Assembly (NCBI GenBank): GCA_951812805.1
Contig: CATOSZ010000003.1
Span: 946,557-1,010,556, forward strand
Origin: an uncultured Alphaproteobacteria bacterium
GTDB lineage: Bacteria; Pseudomonadota; Alphaproteobacteria; GCA-2731375
Length of the DNA: 64,000 nucleotides
Reading direction: 5' to 3'
Position 1 is the first letter of the stretch; each line of letters starts with the position of its first letter. The translations under genes were made by a program, and so were the position numbers. The notes beneath the pieces are model-generated. The model was not told the origin of the DNA and ran no database searches. It worked only from the letters and a program-made list of their open reading frames with translations. Shown piece after piece: positions 23,787-60,633 of this stretch.

Positions 23787-23790
23787 CTAG
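23787..23790. repeat. Target-site duplication CTAG, left of IS copy 1
   Basis: CTAG directly adjoining the left inverted repeat; the same four bases follow the right end at 25335-25338. CTAG is palindromic. Confidence 0.8.
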
Positions 23791-25334
23791 CAGCCTGTCG
23801 GACTCGGGCATGCAAGGATTGGTAAGATTGGCTTGGCGGGCGTCGATGTCATGGATTTACCCCCATGAAGTTGCGAACGCGGGTTGGCCCGCCCGTTCAG
23901 GCGTGGCTGAGGACGAACATCCGCTTGATGTTCCAGGAGAGCGTGGCCAAGGTCCATTCCCCCTTCGCCTTGTCGAGGCCGCGCAGGCTGAACTGACGCA
24001 AGCCCATCACCGATTTGATGATGCCGAACACCGGCTCCGGCGTCTGCTTGCGAAGCGCGTAGAGCGCCCGGCCCTCGGGTGTGGCCAGGCGATGGCACAT
24101 CGCCTCGAGCGGCGTCGGATCCTCGGGCGCTGGCGGCGCCTCGGCGAAGCGGTCCCGCCAGGAAAGATGGTGGTGCTCCCGGCCGAGCGCGATCAGCGGC
24201 GCGATCTCCGCTTCCCCGCAGGCCTCGACGTTGGCCTGGCTGAAGTAGCCGCTGTCCGCCAACAGGGTCTCGACCTCGCCAAGCCCGTCCGGCAGGCCGG
24301 CGAGTGCTTCGAGCGTCGGTTCGATCTGCTGCTTGTCGTTCGCCGCCTGCACCACGTCGGCGCTGACCACCAGCAGGCTGCCGGCGGCCACCGCAGCCTG
24401 GGCGTTGTAGCACTGCTCGAAGCCGCCGCCGGCCACCGGCATGATGCGCGAGTCCGGGTCCGTCAGGTTGACCTGGTCCTTCGCCCGTGGCCCCGGCTCC
24501 GGCGGCTTCGGTGGCCGCCCGCCCGGCTTGCGGCCGGTCCGCGTTTCCTTCGCCTCGCGGGCTGCCAGCTTCTCTTCGTACTCCGCCTGCTCCCGCGCAT
24601 GACGCTCGGCCGCCCGCGCCTCGATCTCCGCCTTCGCCGCGGCGATCGCCGCCAGCCGGTCCTCGCGCCGTGCCAGCTCCTCCGGCACGCTCATGCCGTC
24701 GGGAACCTCGGACCGGTCCGCCGCTTCCGCCAACGCCATCAACTCCGCCACCTCGGCCCGCAGCCGGGCTTCGATCTCGCCCGCACGCTGCCACGACAGG
24801 GCGCTGTGCCGGCTCGCGTCGGCATGGATCTTCGTCCCGTCCAGCGCCACCGTGCCCAGTTGCAGCATGCCGGCCTGCCGCGCCAGCAGCAGAACCTGCA
24901 CGAACAGCCCCTCGATCAGCGGCAGGAAGCGACGGCGGAACGTGGCGATCGTGTCGTGGTCGGGGTGGTCGTTTGCCGCGATGAAGCGGAAGGCCACCGA
25001 ATCATAGCTCGCCCGCTCCAGCTTCCGGCTGGAATGCACCCCCGTCGCGTAGCCGTAGATCAGCAGGCCCAGCAGGACGCTCGGGTGATGCGCCGCCGAG
25101 CCCGAACCACGATAGGCCTTCACGAACGCAGAGAGATCCAGCTGCTCCAGCACATCGACCACGAAGCGCGCCAGATGACGATCAGGCAGCCATTCGTCCA
25201 CCGAAGGCGGCAGAAGATAGCTGGTCTCCCGGTCAACCTGTCGAAAGTTGCTCATCACAAAATCACCGCGCAGGAGAGAATCAGACCGTGACAGTGAATC
25301 TCATCTCGAAACTCGGCTCAAGTCCGACAGGCTG
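23791..25334 (-). mobile_element. IS1182-family insertion sequence, copy 1
   Basis: A complete 1544-bp element. The 14-bp terminal inverted repeats CAGCCTGTCGGACT / AGTCCGACAGGCTG match exactly and CTAG is duplicated at both ends. It carries one transposase gene on the minus strand. A second copy with the same length and, as far as I compared, the same sequence lies at 32101-33644 in direct orientation. This copy interrupts the short gap between cobS and cobT, with its right end 30 bp before the cobT ATG. Confidence 0.93.
23897..25258 (-). CDS. IS1182-family DDE transposase (copy 1)
   Basis: A 453-residue transposase. The N-terminal DUF772 region (VDEWLPDRHLARFVVDVLEQ), a charged coiled-coil-like middle (about 190-265) and the DDE core (VALDGTKIHADAS, LLADSGYFSQANVE, PVFGIIKSVMGLRQFSLRG) are intact, ending with WTLATLSWNIKRM. 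No frameshift or stop, so it is probably functional. Confidence 0.93.
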   Translation of the reverse strand: MMSNFRQVDRETSYLLPPSVDEWLPDRHLARFVVDVLEQLDLSAFVKAYRGSGSAAHHPSVLLGLLIYGYATGVHSSRKLERASYDSVAFRFIAANDHPDHDTIATFRRRFLPLIEGLFVQVLLLARQAGMLQLGTVALDGTKIHADASRHSALSWQRAGEIEARLRAEVAELMALAEAADRSEVPDGMSVPEELARREDRLAAIAAAKAEIEARAAERHAREQAEYEEKLAAREAKETRTGRKPGGRPPKPPEPGPRAKDQVNLTDPDSRIMPVAGGGFEQCYNAQAAVAAGSLLVVSADVVQAANDKQQIEPTLEALAGLPDGLGEVETLLADSGYFSQANVEACGEAEIAPLIALGREHHHLSWRDRFAEAPPAPEDPTPLEAMCHRLATPEGRALYALRKQTPEPVFGIIKSVMGLRQFSLRGLDKAKGEWTLATLSWNIKRMFVLSHA

Positions 25335-25338
25335 CTAG
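25335..25338. repeat. Target-site duplication CTAG, right of IS copy 1
   Basis: Second copy of the CTAG duplicated on insertion. Confidence 0.8.
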
Positions 25339-32096: not shown

Positions 32097-32100
32097 CTAG
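32097..32100. repeat. Target-site duplication CTAG, left of IS copy 2
   Basis: CTAG adjoining the left end of the second IS copy; matching CTAG at 33645-33648. Confidence 0.8.
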
Positions 32101-33644
32101 CAGCCTGTCGGACTCGGGCATGCAAGGATTGGTAAGATTGGCTTGGCGGGCGTCGATGTCATGGATTTACCCCCATGAAGTTGCGAACGCGGGTTGGCCC
32201 GCCCGTTCAGGCGTGGCTGAGGACGAACATCCGCTTGATGTTCCAGGAGAGCGTGGCCAAGGTCCATTCCCCCTTCGCCTTGTCGAGGCCGCGCAGGCTG
32301 AACTGACGCAAGCCCATCACCGATTTGATGATGCCGAACACCGGCTCCGGCGTCTGCTTGCGAAGCGCGTAGAGCGCCCGGCCCTCGGGTGTGGCCAGGC
32401 GATGGCACATCGCCTCGAGCGGCGTCGGATCCTCGGGCGCTGGCGGCGCCTCGGCGAAGCGGTCCCGCCAGGAAAGATGGTGGTGCTCCCGGCCGAGCGC
32501 GATCAGCGGCGCGATCTCCGCTTCCCCGCAGGCCTCGACGTTGGCCTGGCTGAAGTAGCCGCTGTCCGCCAACAGGGTCTCGACCTCGCCAAGCCCGTCC
32601 GGCAGGCCGGCGAGTGCTTCGAGCGTCGGTTCGATCTGCTGCTTGTCGTTCGCCGCCTGCACCACGTCGGCGCTGACCACCAGCAGGCTGCCGGCGGCCA
32701 CCGCAGCCTGGGCGTTGTAGCACTGCTCGAAGCCGCCGCCGGCCACCGGCATGATGCGCGAGTCCGGGTCCGTCAGGTTGACCTGGTCCTTCGCCCGTGG
32801 CCCCGGCTCCGGCGGCTTCGGTGGCCGCCCGCCCGGCTTGCGGCCGGTCCGCGTTTCCTTCGCCTCGCGGGCTGCCAGCTTCTCTTCGTACTCCGCCTGC
32901 TCCCGCGCATGACGCTCGGCCGCCCGCGCCTCGATCTCCGCCTTCGCCGCGGCGATCGCCGCCAGCCGGTCCTCGCGCCGTGCCAGCTCCTCCGGCACGC
33001 TCATGCCGTCGGGAACCTCGGACCGGTCCGCCGCTTCCGCCAACGCCATCAACTCCGCCACCTCGGCCCGCAGCCGGGCTTCGATCTCGCCCGCACGCTG
33101 CCACGACAGGGCGCTGTGCCGGCTCGCGTCGGCATGGATCTTCGTCCCGTCCAGCGCCACCGTGCCCAGTTGCAGCATGCCGGCCTGCCGCGCCAGCAGC
33201 AGAACCTGCACGAACAGCCCCTCGATCAGCGGCAGGAAGCGACGGCGGAACGTGGCGATCGTGTCGTGGTCGGGGTGGTCGTTTGCCGCGATGAAGCGGA
33301 AGGCCACCGAATCATAGCTCGCCCGCTCCAGCTTCCGGCTGGAATGCACCCCCGTCGCGTAGCCGTAGATCAGCAGGCCCAGCAGGACGCTCGGGTGATG
33401 CGCCGCCGAGCCCGAACCACGATAGGCCTTCACGAACGCAGAGAGATCCAGCTGCTCCAGCACATCGACCACGAAGCGCGCCAGATGACGATCAGGCAGC
33501 CATTCGTCCACCGAAGGCGGCAGAAGATAGCTGGTCTCCCGGTCAACCTGTCGAAAGTTGCTCATCACAAAATCACCGCGCAGGAGAGAATCAGACCGTG
33601 ACAGTGAATCTCATCTCGAAACTCGGCTCAAGTCCGACAGGCTG
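32101..33644 (-). mobile_element. IS1182-family insertion sequence, copy 2
   Basis: 1544 bp, same orientation, inverted repeats and transposase as copy 1, 8310 bp further on, and apparently identical in sequence. It has its own CTAG duplication. The right end touches the stop codon of the EthD-like gene: the TAG stop is part of the CTAG target. Confidence 0.93.
32207..33568 (-). CDS. IS1182-family DDE transposase (copy 2)
   Basis: 453 residues, identical in translation to copy 1, with the same intact DDE core. Two identical intact copies within 10 kb indicate recent transposition. Confidence 0.93.
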   Translation of the reverse strand: MMSNFRQVDRETSYLLPPSVDEWLPDRHLARFVVDVLEQLDLSAFVKAYRGSGSAAHHPSVLLGLLIYGYATGVHSSRKLERASYDSVAFRFIAANDHPDHDTIATFRRRFLPLIEGLFVQVLLLARQAGMLQLGTVALDGTKIHADASRHSALSWQRAGEIEARLRAEVAELMALAEAADRSEVPDGMSVPEELARREDRLAAIAAAKAEIEARAAERHAREQAEYEEKLAAREAKETRTGRKPGGRPPKPPEPGPRAKDQVNLTDPDSRIMPVAGGGFEQCYNAQAAVAAGSLLVVSADVVQAANDKQQIEPTLEALAGLPDGLGEVETLLADSGYFSQANVEACGEAEIAPLIALGREHHHLSWRDRFAEAPPAPEDPTPLEAMCHRLATPEGRALYALRKQTPEPVFGIIKSVMGLRQFSLRGLDKAKGEWTLATLSWNIKRMFVLSHA

Positions 33645-33648
33645 CTAG
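33645..33648. repeat. Target-site duplication CTAG, right of IS copy 2
   Basis: Second CTAG; its TAG part is the stop codon of the gene on the minus strand. Confidence 0.8.
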
Positions 33649-42282: not shown

Positions 42283-43480
42283 GGCGATCTGCTCCCTGTT
42301 CGTCGCGCGCCGAATCGTGCCCGGCGCCTCGTTGCCGGACATCTTAGCATGCGGGTCGTAGGCTGTGGATATTTTCGAACGAGCATTCGGAACATGCCCA
42401 ATGTCCCGCTCCGGCCCCCAACCTGTTGGGGTTGCACGGCCGCCAGCCACAAAATTTTGTTGCAATCGGCCGGAAAACTTGCTAAGCACCCGCCAACGGT
42501 AAGGGCGCCGGGTCACGTGGTGGTTGGGACCACGTGAATGCTTTCCCGAAGAAAAGCGCCCGACGCCCTCGGAGCTGGTCACGCTCCCGACACGCGCTTC
42601 GTCACGGTACCGGACGGGTTAGGCGGATCTCGATGTAAATCGCGGTCCGCTTTGCCGTTTCGCGTCCCCCGGCCCGGTCTTTCGACCGTGTCGGGCGCGC
42701 CCGGCCTCCGGGTGCCTCGGCGCCTCGGGTCCCGAGGATGCGCGGGCCGGGCCGAAACCCGTCGTCGCGCCGCCTCGCGCCCCGCGCCTCGCCGCCCGGG
42801 CCGCCGTATTCTGCCGGATCGCGGCGCCAACGAGGCCTCGAGAGGTCCTCGACCACGGCGTCTCGCACTCCGACCGACCGCTCGCGAGGTTGCGCGTCCG
42901 AAAACACGGTCCCCTCCGCGCGCGGCCCCGTCTCGAAGGTCCGGGCTCGTCGCGCTTCGGCGACCGAGGCCGCCGTCGCGCCGAGCCGGCACCCCTGCCC
43001 CCGAAGGGGAACGGGGCCGGCAGACCCGCGCCGCGTCGACGACAAGCTCCGAAAAGCCGTGCCGCCGCGCGGGGCGCGGAATCGCGCCGCCTCCGAATCG
43101 AAGGGCACCGACCCCGCCACGCGATCCGAGGACCGCGCCGCGAAATCCGCCTCCCCTCGCCCGGCGATGCCATTGCGCCCGCCGCCCGTCACGCCGTCCC
43201 ACGATTGGTTCGAAGACCACCGCAGACCCCCGTGAAGGGGAATGCGTCGTGAGACCCGCAACGCCCGGCCGGCGACACCGCCAGCGGAGAACACGTCGCT
43301 CCGCTGTCGGAAAGTCCAGCGCCGAAGCCCCGGTCTTCCCGTTCGAAATCCGCCTGTCCGAAACACCGCCGCGGCCCCGGAGCCACCCCCGAAAGGGTTG
43401 CCCGCCACCGCCTTGGCCGTCCCGGTCACACCGATTTCGACGCCAACGCGTGCAAGTAAATCCTGACAGAAATCGAAGAC
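42283..43480. other. Gene-free, very GC-rich stretch
   Basis: No convincing gene. Several frames on both strands stay open for 100-370 codons, but their products are Arg-, Pro- and Ala-rich without any recognisable domain, which is what stop-poor GC-rich DNA yields. From 42540 on, the plus strand is clearly C-rich over G. Short hairpins of the CCCCGAAGGGG type recur. A DnaA-box-like TGTGGATAT lies at 42364-42372. It borders the DnaA-box cluster. Confidence 0.6.
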
Positions 43481-43620
43481 ACGGCAAGCAAAAACTTTTG
43501 CTTCGGCAAACAAACTTGTGTATAAGCCGGCAAGCTCGCGAATATTAATCCACAAGTTTTCCACAGAATTATCCACACTACTGGTAAATACTTGCAACAG
43601 CAGAAAAATCCGGGTTCGGA
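43481..43620. other. oriC: Candidate replication origin: AT-rich patch with clustered DnaA boxes
   Basis: An AT-rich patch in otherwise GC-rich DNA holds four DnaA-box-like 9-mers in 61 bp: TGTGTATAA at 43517-43525 (perfect box TTATACACA on the minus strand), TAATCCACA at 43546-43554 (one mismatch), TTTTCCACA at 43557-43565 (relaxed match) and TTATCCACA at 43569-43577 (perfect). The last three are direct repeats 11 and 12 bp apart, i.e. on the same helix face. Flanking genes are not the usual oriC neighbours, so a DnaA-titration or regulatory site is also possible. Confidence 0.6.
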
Positions 43621-43725: not shown

Positions 43726-44358
43726 ATGCGAATCTGTTCGACGCGACGTGCGCTGCTATTTGGCCTGCCCGCCCTGGCGCTCCTGCCGGGTCCGGCGTTG
43801 GCCGCGGCGAGCCGGGCGGAGGTCGACGGTGCGGCCGAGTTCATGCGCTGGCTGGCGGGCCAGGCGATCGCCGTGTTGCAGGCGAACAGCGGCAGCTTGG
43901 AACAGCGCGAAACGGCCTTCCGTCGGCTACTGGCCCAGGGCTTCGACGTCGGCTTCATCGGGCGATTCGCGCTCGGCCGGCACTGGCGCGGGGCCAGCGC
44001 CCAGCAACAGCGCGACTATCTGCAAGTGTTTTCCGAGTATCTTCTGGCGACCTATTCCCGCCGCCTCGGCGGCTACGCGGGTGAGCGCTTCGATATCTCC
44101 GGTGCCAAGGCCAAGGGCAAGCGCGATATCCTCGTCGCCACCCGGATCCAGCGCCCGGGCGGCCAGGCGATCCATGCCGACTGGCGCGTTCGGGTGATCG
44201 ACGGTCACTACAAGATCATCGACGTCGCGGTCGAAGGCGTGTCGATGGCGGTCACCCAGCGCGCCGAGTTCGCAGCCGTGGTCAAGAGCCACGGGGTCGA
44301 CGGCCTGCTGCAGGCCTTGCGCGCGCGCACGCAGACCTTCTCGGCCCGCGCTTCCTGA
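43726..44358 (+). CDS. MlaC/Ttg2D-like phospholipid-binding periplasmic protein
   Basis: A 210-residue exported protein with a signal peptide carrying RR (STRRALLFGLPALALLPGPALA) and the Tol_Tol_Ttg2/MlaC pattern: RLLAQGFDVGFIGRFALGRHW, QRDYLQVFSEYLLATYSRRL and DWRVRVIDGHYKIIDVAVEGVSM. Such proteins carry phospholipids between outer and inner membrane for the Mla ABC system, but no other mla gene is next to it here. Confidence 0.87.
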   Translation: MRICSTRRALLFGLPALALLPGPALAAASRAEVDGAAEFMRWLAGQAIAVLQANSGSLEQRETAFRRLLAQGFDVGFIGRFALGRHWRGASAQQQRDYLQVFSEYLLATYSRRLGGYAGERFDISGAKAKGKRDILVATRIQRPGGQAIHADWRVRVIDGHYKIIDVAVEGVSMAVTQRAEFAAVVKSHGVDGLLQALRARTQTFSARAS

Positions 44359-58317: not shown

Positions 58318-59049
58318 CTACTTTTGTCGTCGCTGTTTGCTTTGTGCGAAGCGGTAAGACATGTTGCCTGTTTCGATGATTGCGCAGTGATGCGTTACAC
58401 GATCCAGCAACGCGGTTGTTATTTTTGCATCTCCGAAGACGGAGACCCATTCCCCGAACTCCAGATTGGTGGTGATGATGACGCTGGTCTTCTCATAGAG
58501 TTTGCTGATCAGGTGGAACAAGAGCGCACCGCCGGATTTGGGGAATGGGATATAGCCCAGTTCGTCGATGATGACGCAATCCATGGCCGTCAGTTGCCGG
58601 ATGATCTTGCCGGCGTTGCCTTCGGCCTGTTCCTTGATCAGCGCATTGATCAGATCGACGGCGTTGAAGAAACGGACCTTCTTTCCCTGATTGATCAACA
58701 GCGTCCCCAGAGCAATGGCGATGTGGGTTTTGCCCGTACCGGTTCCGCCCACCAGAATGAGGTTGTGGGCCTCCTGGGTGAACTGCCCTGAGCAGAAGGG
58801 GTCGATTTGCGCTTGGGTGACGGCGGCTAGGCCGTAATCGAAAGTGGCGAAGTCCTTATGGTGGGGGAACTTCGAGGCCCGCATTTGGTGCTGGATAGAG
58901 CGCACCCGGCGCTCTACAGTCTCGGCGTCGATCAGTTGCTTTATCGCAGTGGTCAGACTTGGCGGCTTGCGCGCGGCCAGCAAAGCTTCGGCGCAAGCCG
59001 CCATTCCATACAGCCTCAGGGCGATCAGTTGGTCTATCAAAGCTTTCAT
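58318..59049 (-). CDS. istB: IS21-family helper ATPase IstB
   Basis: A 243-residue AAA+ ATPase assisting IstA in strand transfer. Walker [12 protein letters not shown], Walker [13 protein letters not shown] and [13 protein letters not shown] (sensor 1) are intact. The ATG at 59049 overlaps the istA stop as ATGA, the typical coupling of this family. A longer frame starts at 59073 within istA. Confidence 0.93.
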
Positions 59050-60522
59050 GCGACGGCCTCCCCGGCAACGCACAGCGTCTCATAGCGCTTGCAGTCCGCT
59101 TCGGGCCGCAAGGTCAGTTGCGGATAGGCGTGGCTCTCGCCCCATGGCGCGATGACCGGCTCCACCAGTTGGTTGATCAGATTGATGATGGCCGGAAGGC
59201 GCAGCGTGTTCTGCTCCACGGCCAGTTCACAGGCTATCTCGACCACCTCGATCCCGTGATCCTGGGCCAGCAGGAGCAGATCGACAAACTCCCGGTCCCC
59301 GCCTTTGCCGGCCATGTAATGCGCCCTGACCCGGTGCATCGCCTCAGGCAATTGCCAACCCACAAAGGGCGCGCCATCTCTCAGCGCGCCGGGCTTGCGG
59401 TCGAGTAGGGGCAGGTAATGCCAGGGCTCGAAATAGCTGGCGTTGCGGGTAAAGCGGCGCTTGTGCTCGGCAATCACATTCTGCCCTGACACAACCACGA
59501 TCCGGTCCGCATAGGCGCGCAGAGAGACAAGCTCCCCGGCGAACCGGGAGGGGACGCTATAGCGATTGGTGGCATATTGGACCAGACAGGTAGAGCGGAC
59601 ACGAGCGGCCTTCTCAACATAGCCGTCAAAAGCCCGGCCCAGGGGACGCAGTTCGGCGCACTCGTCTGCGAACACGTCCGAGATCTTGCGATCCGATTGT
59701 TCGGGGTGGGCGCGATTCGCCAATTCCTCGCAGCGCATCCAGATCGTCAAAGGCGGGCTTGGGCGCAAACAGCTGTCCCCGCAGGAACCCAACCTGGTTC
59801 TCAATCTGACCCTTCTCCCACCCCGCCGCGGGTGTGCAAGCAACCGGTTCCATCACATAGTGGTTCATCAACGCCAGAAAGCGCGGATGGAACACACGGT
59901 CCTTAGAGCGCGAAACATAGGTTACCATCGTCTTGGGGTTGTCGATGATCACCCGGCGCGGTACGCCGCCATAGAAAGACATCGCCCGTGCAAAGGCGTC
60001 CAGCACCATCTCCTGAGATTCGCTGGGATAGGCAACAACAAAGGGCTTGCGGCTATGACATAGGCGGAAGTGGGCAACCTTTACCTTCTGCTCGACACCG
60101 CCCAGGACAGCGTATTCCGTGCTCCAGTCAAACTGGAGCGCGTCACCTGCCGTAAAGTGCAACGGAATGAACGCATCCCCCGATCCGGCGCCAGAACGCT
60201 TCAGGTCGCGGACAAACCTCTGAACCGTCGAGTAGGATCCGCTATAGCCTTCCGACACAAGCTGCTCATAAAGCTTCTTGGCCGTCCGGCGCTCACGGCG
60301 CGGGCGCCCCAGGTCCTGCTCAAAGAGCGCCCGAAGCCGGCTGGCGAAGCCATCGCTAAGCTTACGCCGGACGGGTGAAACGCGCCGCTGATAGCTCGGT
60401 GGATCGCCGTCCTTCAGATACTTCTTAATCGTGTTCCGCGACAAACCAGTCTGACGAGATACAGATCGGATACTCCGACCCTCCCGTAATATCCAACGTC
60501 GGATCTTCAATACGCTTTCCAT
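59046..60522 (-). pseudogene. istA: IS21-family transposase IstA, disrupted by a single-base frameshift
   Basis: About 490 residues in two frames. The first (60522 to about 59731) has the helix-turn-helix SVSRQTGLSRNTIKKYLKDG and the DDE core: LQFDWSTEY, RRVIIDNPKTMVTY and KGQIENQVGFLRGQ. The second (to 59046) carries the C-terminal part from EELANRAHPEQSDR on. Removing one base at 59730 would join D-A-L to E-E-L-A-N-R in frame. Either a sequencing error or an inactivating insertion. Confidence 0.85.
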
Positions 60523-60633
60523 CAATACCACCTGCTCTTTCCTCCGCACTGTTCCGTGCGGATGCTAGCGTTCCAGGTGGGTCAATTCTTACCGCTCATA
60601 ACCCACCAAAGTGGGTCAGTTTTGCATGCCGAT

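Follow-up and report, generated by a model that had tools for sequence, protein, structure and literature searches.

A predicted structured non-coding RNA gene adjoining a DnaA-box array in Alphaproteobacteria

Between an amidohydrolase gene and an MlaC gene in an alphaproteobacterial genome, about 1.4 kb of DNA contains no recognisable gene. Based on comparison with related genomes, we propose that this stretch very probably carries a conserved, DnaA-linked gene for a structured RNA. The proposed non-coding RNA gene (42,497-43,450, minus strand) would start near position 43,450 and end near 42,497, giving a transcript of about 950 nt. This assignment is based on a conserved 3′ junction, a conserved start side, the strand counts of A-C and G-U cells in paired columns, a G-rich body with UUCG hairpins, and fold z-scores. 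All positions refer to the window, i.e., the whole 64,000-base stretch of DNA that was analysed (G000:C3:946557-1010556), which lies on a 2.4 Mb contig of a 7.42 Mb genome. The amidohydrolase gene (41,182 to about 42,283, minus strand) is the left neighbour of the gene-free stretch, while the MlaC-like gene on its other side (43,726-44,358, plus strand; Pfam MlaC, E 2.5e-41) is divergent from the RNA. Elsewhere in the window, two identical 1,552-base copies (100%) of an insertion sequence, whose minus strand carries a DDE transposase frame, lie in direct orientation 8.3 kb apart (23,787-25,338 and 32,097-33,648). Additionally, IS21-type istB and istA pieces are found in a low-GC stretch at 58,318-60,549, where istA appears split over two frames.

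An initial annotation had delimited the region as positions 42,540-43,450, an interval that includes the body of the element and misses its left end (42,497-42,540) as well as the predicted promoter and the DnaA array to the right (up to 43,577). Its description of the stretch as gene-free agrees with our results: four open frames span it, none with a Pfam match at E 0.01. No tRNA or tmRNA was found within the window. The reported excess of C over G on the plus strand was also confirmed, with a GC skew of -0.135 over 42,540-43,450; only 0.98% of 3,991 equal-size windows from the surrounding 400 kb are as low or lower. The statement that the stretch has no stop codons was an exaggeration, as the six frames contain 2, 0, 2 and 1, 3, 1 stops. 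Such a small number is unremarkable because the body has 74% GC, and in relatives with lower GC many stops occur in every frame. A DNA similarity search with the whole stretch against 40 relatives returned short matches only, the best at E 2.9e-5; the four matches inspected appear to lie within coding sequence and were therefore taken as chance. Plasmid searches gave no match for two junction sequences; for the window's stretch, they gave a single chance-like match (73.5% over 10% of the query).

A pattern search derived from the array led to the relative G015, in which a gene-free C-rich stretch, a DnaA array and mlaC are found in the same order. Four other genomes with a DnaA array and mlaC (G206, G298, G402 and G403) were found next. 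In the six genomes examined, including that of the window (G000) and representing three families, mlaC is linked to the RNA and the array, and a structured motif is common to the far left end of the stretch. In the window, we localized this motif, a three-way junction at the 3′ terminus of the RNA, at positions 42,499-42,588 of the minus strand, based on alignments A3 and A5 and covariance models R1 and R2. Its outer stem pairs 42,503-42,512 with 42,559-42,568 and encloses two hairpins, at 42,513-42,537 and 42,540-42,557; a conserved third hairpin is located at 42,571-42,587, all on the same strand.

The base pairs of the junction show clear covariation. In the six-sequence alignment, both sides changed in 10 of 27 pairs, compared with 3.6 ± 1.3 in shuffles. 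When the alignment was extended to 21 sequences, two-sided changes were present in 20 of the 27 pairs and in a total of 90 cells, compared with 24.4 ± 3.9 cells in shuffles; the covariation score was 0.426 vs 0.146, and sliding the structure along the alignment gave 6-9 pairs. The outer stem is conserved in the sequence itself, beyond its pairing, and the junction keeps conserved unpaired bases. The covariance-model analysis that the initial annotation had suggested recovered a structured 3′ junction in relatives. The same paired columns indicate the orientation of the RNA. Read on the plus strand, they contain 31 A-C/C-A cells and 10 G-U/U-G cells, and the RNA was assigned to the minus strand because the 31 cells turn into wobble pairs there. 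An RNA on the plus strand had also been considered and was dropped after this count.

Past the outer stem, the 3′ tail (42,477-42,502, minus strand) includes a U-tract that is weak in the window (CTTACCGTT...) and clear in most relatives. As a raw count made on the RNA strand only, six or more T are found among the first 15 bases of the tail at 30 of 33 loci, the exceptions being the window (4), G240 (4) and G273 (1). At these 30 loci, which do not include the window, the junction stem followed by the U-tract resembles an intrinsic terminator.

The RNA body (42,591-43,438, minus strand) is C-rich on the plus strand and G-rich on the minus strand, contains many hairpins and has no conserved reading frame. 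G exceeds C in the RNA sense in the region between the two ends at all 29 loci compared. At these loci, UUCG hairpins with a stem of at least 3 occur 64 times on the RNA strand, compared with 2.9 ± 1.6 in dinucleotide shuffles, and 4 times on the opposite strand (2.4 ± 1.3 in shuffles); CUUCGG is the strongest 6-mer of the bodies (106 vs 14.1). The recurrence of CCCCGAAGGGG-type hairpins mentioned in the initial annotation is therefore very strong in the relatives and weak in the window, whose body has one UUCG hairpin on each strand and no excess. The central 300 bases of 12 bodies have a mean folding z of -3.07 on the RNA strand, compared with -1.09 on the opposite strand; in the window, the two values were -2.44 (minus strand) and +0.46 (plus strand). 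For seven congeners from one genus of the window's family (mean identity 71%), the alignment-fold z was -6.8 in the sense and -3.2 in the antisense direction, with both sides changed in 91 of 363 predicted pairs (antisense, 65 of 245). The body sequence is not conserved, and the distance between the RNA ends varies from 27 to 1,357 nt. At locus L167 (G317), the region about 90-430 bases from the junction is a tandem array of many hairpin units that are nearly identical and have UUCG loops, a pattern resembling growth by duplication.

The start side of the RNA adjoins an AT-rich segment with a DnaA array (43,455-43,605), which is a candidate unwinding region and predicted oriC. The array comprises an inverted box on the minus strand, TTATACACA (43,517-43,525), and three boxes on the plus strand that span 43,546-43,577: TAATCCACA at 43,546, TTTTCCACA at 43,557, exactly 40 bases from the inverted box, and TTATCCACA at 43,569, 12 bases beyond TTTTCCACA. 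Within the surrounding 400 kb, 4 of the 13 near-consensus DnaA boxes fall in these 61 bases (43,517-43,577). We searched 44 loci for DnaA boxes, allowing no more than one mismatch. A box is present within 1.55 kb on the start side at 40 loci and on the far side at 9, and an inverted box pair spaced exactly 40 bases is found at 29 loci on the start side vs 0 on the far side; for seven of the 44 loci, less than 1,000 bases of flank were available on one side, which was the far (control) side for six and the start side for one. Of 60 mlaC loci, 5 (from four genomes, the window's counted twice) have at least two DnaA boxes in the 400 bases upstream.

The array is in phase with a putative -35 element, TTGCCG (43,482-43,487, minus strand), whose TTG lies exactly 38 bases from the start of the inverted DnaA box. 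A TTG occurs at offset 38 at 23 of 32 loci and at offsets 37-39 at 28 of 32, compared with a mean of 1.08 loci per offset. For this count, the best-matching box within a range of 45 bases was used, and array positions had been partly set by hand at loci with degenerate boxes; positions set in this way also entered the comparison of the 29 bodies, the folding of the 12 bodies, the reading of the start side and the sigma-70 score. In nine loci added later (L272, L273 and L276-L282), the box with a TTG at exactly 38 was found in eight, which together contain 47 UUCG hairpins, all of them on the RNA strand; L272 has no array. A possible -10 element, GATTTA (43,457-43,462, minus strand), is weak in the window, and GATACT, GATAAT or AATACT are found in relatives. 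The general sigma-70 score of all loci (-35/-10 hexamers, 16-19 spacing) was 7.81, compared with 7.45 ± 0.17 in shuffled sequences. Because this score barely exceeds that of the shuffles, the predicted promoter rests mainly on the TTG phasing and on a conserved hairpin at the 5′ end of the RNA (43,435-43,453; GCACGC...GCGTCG on the minus strand), which was read from the alignment and is matched by hairpins at the equivalent position in many relatives.

Using covariance model R1 at E 0.01, we screened 385 alphaproteobacterial genomes and found the junction in 17, among them members of families outside the training set. With R2, it was found in at least 29 of 385 alphaproteobacterial genomes at E 0.001, which is a lower bound because at most 11 candidates were scored per genome. 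Both models were trained on alignments that include the window sequence. In a phylum-wide draw, R2 identified 3 of 249 genomes, all Alphaproteobacteria, and among 40 chosen genomes it identified 20 at E 0.01, including 11 of the 15 members of the window's family and 6 of the 7 members of f148, and none of the 8 members of f78. Locus L166, a duplicate of L158, and the second matches in G197:C8, G405:C2, G402:C69, G403:C113 and G404:C7 were omitted from the rows. Second junction matches are strong on C2 in G405 and weak in G402, G403 and G404. Two loci, L272 (G405:C1) and L154 (G273:C1), have well-conserved junctions with neither a DnaA array nor a U-tract. These two junctions and the extra matches possibly represent a second locus or replicon, or contamination. 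At L181 (G589), repeats of the GGTATAGG type adjoin the RNA and DnaA-like boxes, at a distance of about 540-640 bases from the junction.

The initial annotation had listed the origin region as one explanation of the stretch. The DnaA-box array next to the RNA in most relatives, with its fixed architecture, makes this reading plausible; GC skew and parS in the window's genome do not support it. On balance, we consider it reasonably probable that the array is the replication origin (oriC). As expected of an oriC, the cluster of DnaA boxes adjoins an AT-rich segment. The GC skew of G000 has no sign change at the locus and is weakly negative on both sides; that of G015 likewise has none and stays negative overall across the 100 kb around the locus. 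In G589, the skew changes sign at about 2.48-2.66 Mb and the RNA is located at 2.50 Mb, where the junction is a weak match (42 bits); the parS of this genome is at 3.33 Mb, 0.8 Mb away from the RNA.

A parS and gid cluster near oriC is usual in Alphaproteobacteria. In G000, no parS was found near the locus: a parS-like pair sits on a different contig, adjoining genes read from their translations as mnmE, mnmG, rsmG and parA. In G346, parS and the RNA share a contig and are 303 kb apart, and parS is also far from the RNA in the other genomes where the distance is visible. Relatives in the window's family (L029, L033, L043, L034, L030-L032 and L035) have extra DnaA-box clusters with no RNA, which lie next to a gene for an acyl-CoA ligase and upstream of a gene read as uvrC. 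Among the relatives with such RNA-less clusters are G002 and G012, in which the RNA is present elsewhere in the genome. Based on the skew, the parS positions and the extra clusters, the array could be another DnaA locus.

Comparison of the loci establishes the structured 3′ end, the strand, the G-rich and tetraloop-studded body and the fixed geometry between the box and the TTG. The arrangement that we favour, with somewhat better than even confidence, is that of a structured RNA gene on the minus strand, transcribed from a promoter beside the DnaA array, away from the array, and ending in a three-way-junction terminator. The predicted promoter would lie next to the AT-rich array with its -35-like element at a fixed 29-base gap from the inverted box, so that DnaA bound at the array may sense or set promoter firing. 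Transcription leaving the array would in turn leave negative supercoils in the AT-rich DnaA region and make it easier to open. In E. coli, transcription heading away from oriC adds negative supercoils and promotes initiation, according to the passages of PMC6606810 on this subject. The stable hairpins and the junction may fold the nascent RNA during synthesis, protect it and end it precisely. Such folding of the nascent RNA is proposed as the reason why structure and G-richness are kept and sequence and length are not. By analogy with E. coli, a role in cis of the transcription in origin opening is nearly as probable as its opposite.

The main alternative is that the RNA acts in trans, as a regulator or scaffold whose synthesis reports the state of the origin or of DnaA and which might, for instance, base-pair with cell-cycle mRNAs or hold a protein by means of its hairpins. 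We regard it as possible, if rather doubtful. The precise conserved ends, the structured 3′ junction with its conserved unpaired bases, the many similar hairpins and the tandem hairpin units of L167 are consistent with such a role, for which the Caulobacter RNA CcnA is a precedent (as presented in the sections of PMC8959179 on its function). Nevertheless, a body whose sequence and length (27 to 1,357 nt) are not conserved is unlike that of a base-pairing regulator and favours the structure, or the act of transcription, over pairing with targets. It is also unlikely that the region functions at the DNA level only, as a DnaA-binding locus, or as a part of the origin rich in inverted repeats, that yields no functional transcript. 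The adjoining array and the outer stem, in which the sequence is kept and not the pairing alone, would agree with a DNA element, but the wobble asymmetry (31 vs 10), the strand-specific excess of UUCG hairpins, the T-rich tail after the stem (counted on that strand only) and the phasing of the TTG to the DnaA box all argue for a transcript.

The RNA could also be a long 5′ leader, attenuator or riboswitch of the left gene, which in the window is the amidohydrolase gene; this gene has the orientation of the RNA, and the 3′ element looks like a terminator. However, the left neighbour is not conserved, and a convergent gene takes its place in G015 and, as read, in G402, which makes such a leader very improbable. 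Decayed coding DNA, another explanation offered by the initial annotation, or a gene missed in a GC-rich genome would account for the long open frames on both strands, yet the stretch matches no Pfam family, no open frame is kept among relatives and the conservation is that of base pairs. Protein-level conservation of a frame, which the initial annotation had named as evidence against its own view, was found for none among the relatives, and in the lower-GC genomes G206 and G298 all frames are interrupted by stops. We thus consider a coding origin almost certainly wrong. The structured-RNA explanation, also among those listed initially, is strongly supported by the covariation, the strand asymmetry of wobble pairs, the strand-specific excess of tetraloop hairpins and the conserved ends.

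Searches against Rfam 15 gave no match for the window at the gathering threshold and, for 11 loci at relaxed E-values, weak matches only, far below the threshold. The closest precedent is CcnA of Caulobacter crescentus, described in the pertinent sections of PMC8959179 as a 182-nt RNA that is encoded within the origin and contains weak DnaA boxes as well as a CtrA box, CtrA boxes being located at its promoter and end; a role in trans has been proposed for it. Both are non-coding RNA genes in or beside an alphaproteobacterial DnaA-box origin, with a link to cell-cycle control; in our case, the origin and this link are predicted. As far as those sections describe CcnA, the RNA reported here differs in its location next to the array, its usual length of 0.4-1.5 kb, its three-way-junction terminator and, at most loci, its wealth of UUCG hairpins; its position and usual size set it apart from an RNA of about 182 nt within the origin.

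OLE, GOLLD and ROOL, as portrayed in the relevant part of PMC12286853, are likewise large, highly structured non-coding RNAs with a role that is partly known or less; unlike them, the RNA described here matches no Rfam family. It shares with gidA and mioC at the E. coli oriC, in the account given in part of PMC6606810, transcription away from a DnaA-box origin that helps its opening, which is here proposed, and it differs from these protein genes in being a non-coding, structured unit with its own predicted terminator. EcpR1 of Sinorhizobium meliloti, also an alphaproteobacterial RNA, is tied to cell-cycle regulation and, unlike the present RNA, is a trans-encoded small RNA, in the sections of PMC4414408 that characterise it.

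The main text of the structured-RNA discovery papers on 26 and 50 bacterial genomes contains none of the terms origin of replication, oriC, dnaA, Alphaproteobacteria and UUCG. To our knowledge, OLE, GOLLD and ROOL have no linkage to DnaA and EcpR1 has no origin location, and we know of origin-linked regulatory RNAs in bacteria only as isolated cases such as CcnA. Within the portions of the literature on origin-linked RNAs covered here, we noticed nothing similar, CcnA being the sole alphaproteobacterial origin RNA encountered. The family, its size, its structure and its predicted DnaA-phased promoter therefore appear new, while a non-coding RNA at an origin is of a known kind.

We tentatively suggest that in many alphaproteobacteria outside the studied models, replication may start at an origin that includes its own DnaA-phased transcription unit, in which DnaA at the array would trigger synthesis of a large, G-rich, self-folding RNA. 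Through supercoiling, an R-loop or its product, this unit would be part of the initiation switch. If so, such a component would have been overlooked because it looks like empty GC-rich intergenic DNA. A widespread structured RNA with a DnaA-phased promoter would provide a marker for origins in uncultured alphaproteobacteria, and the RNA family would offer a direct test of whether the RNA takes part in replication initiation or reports it.
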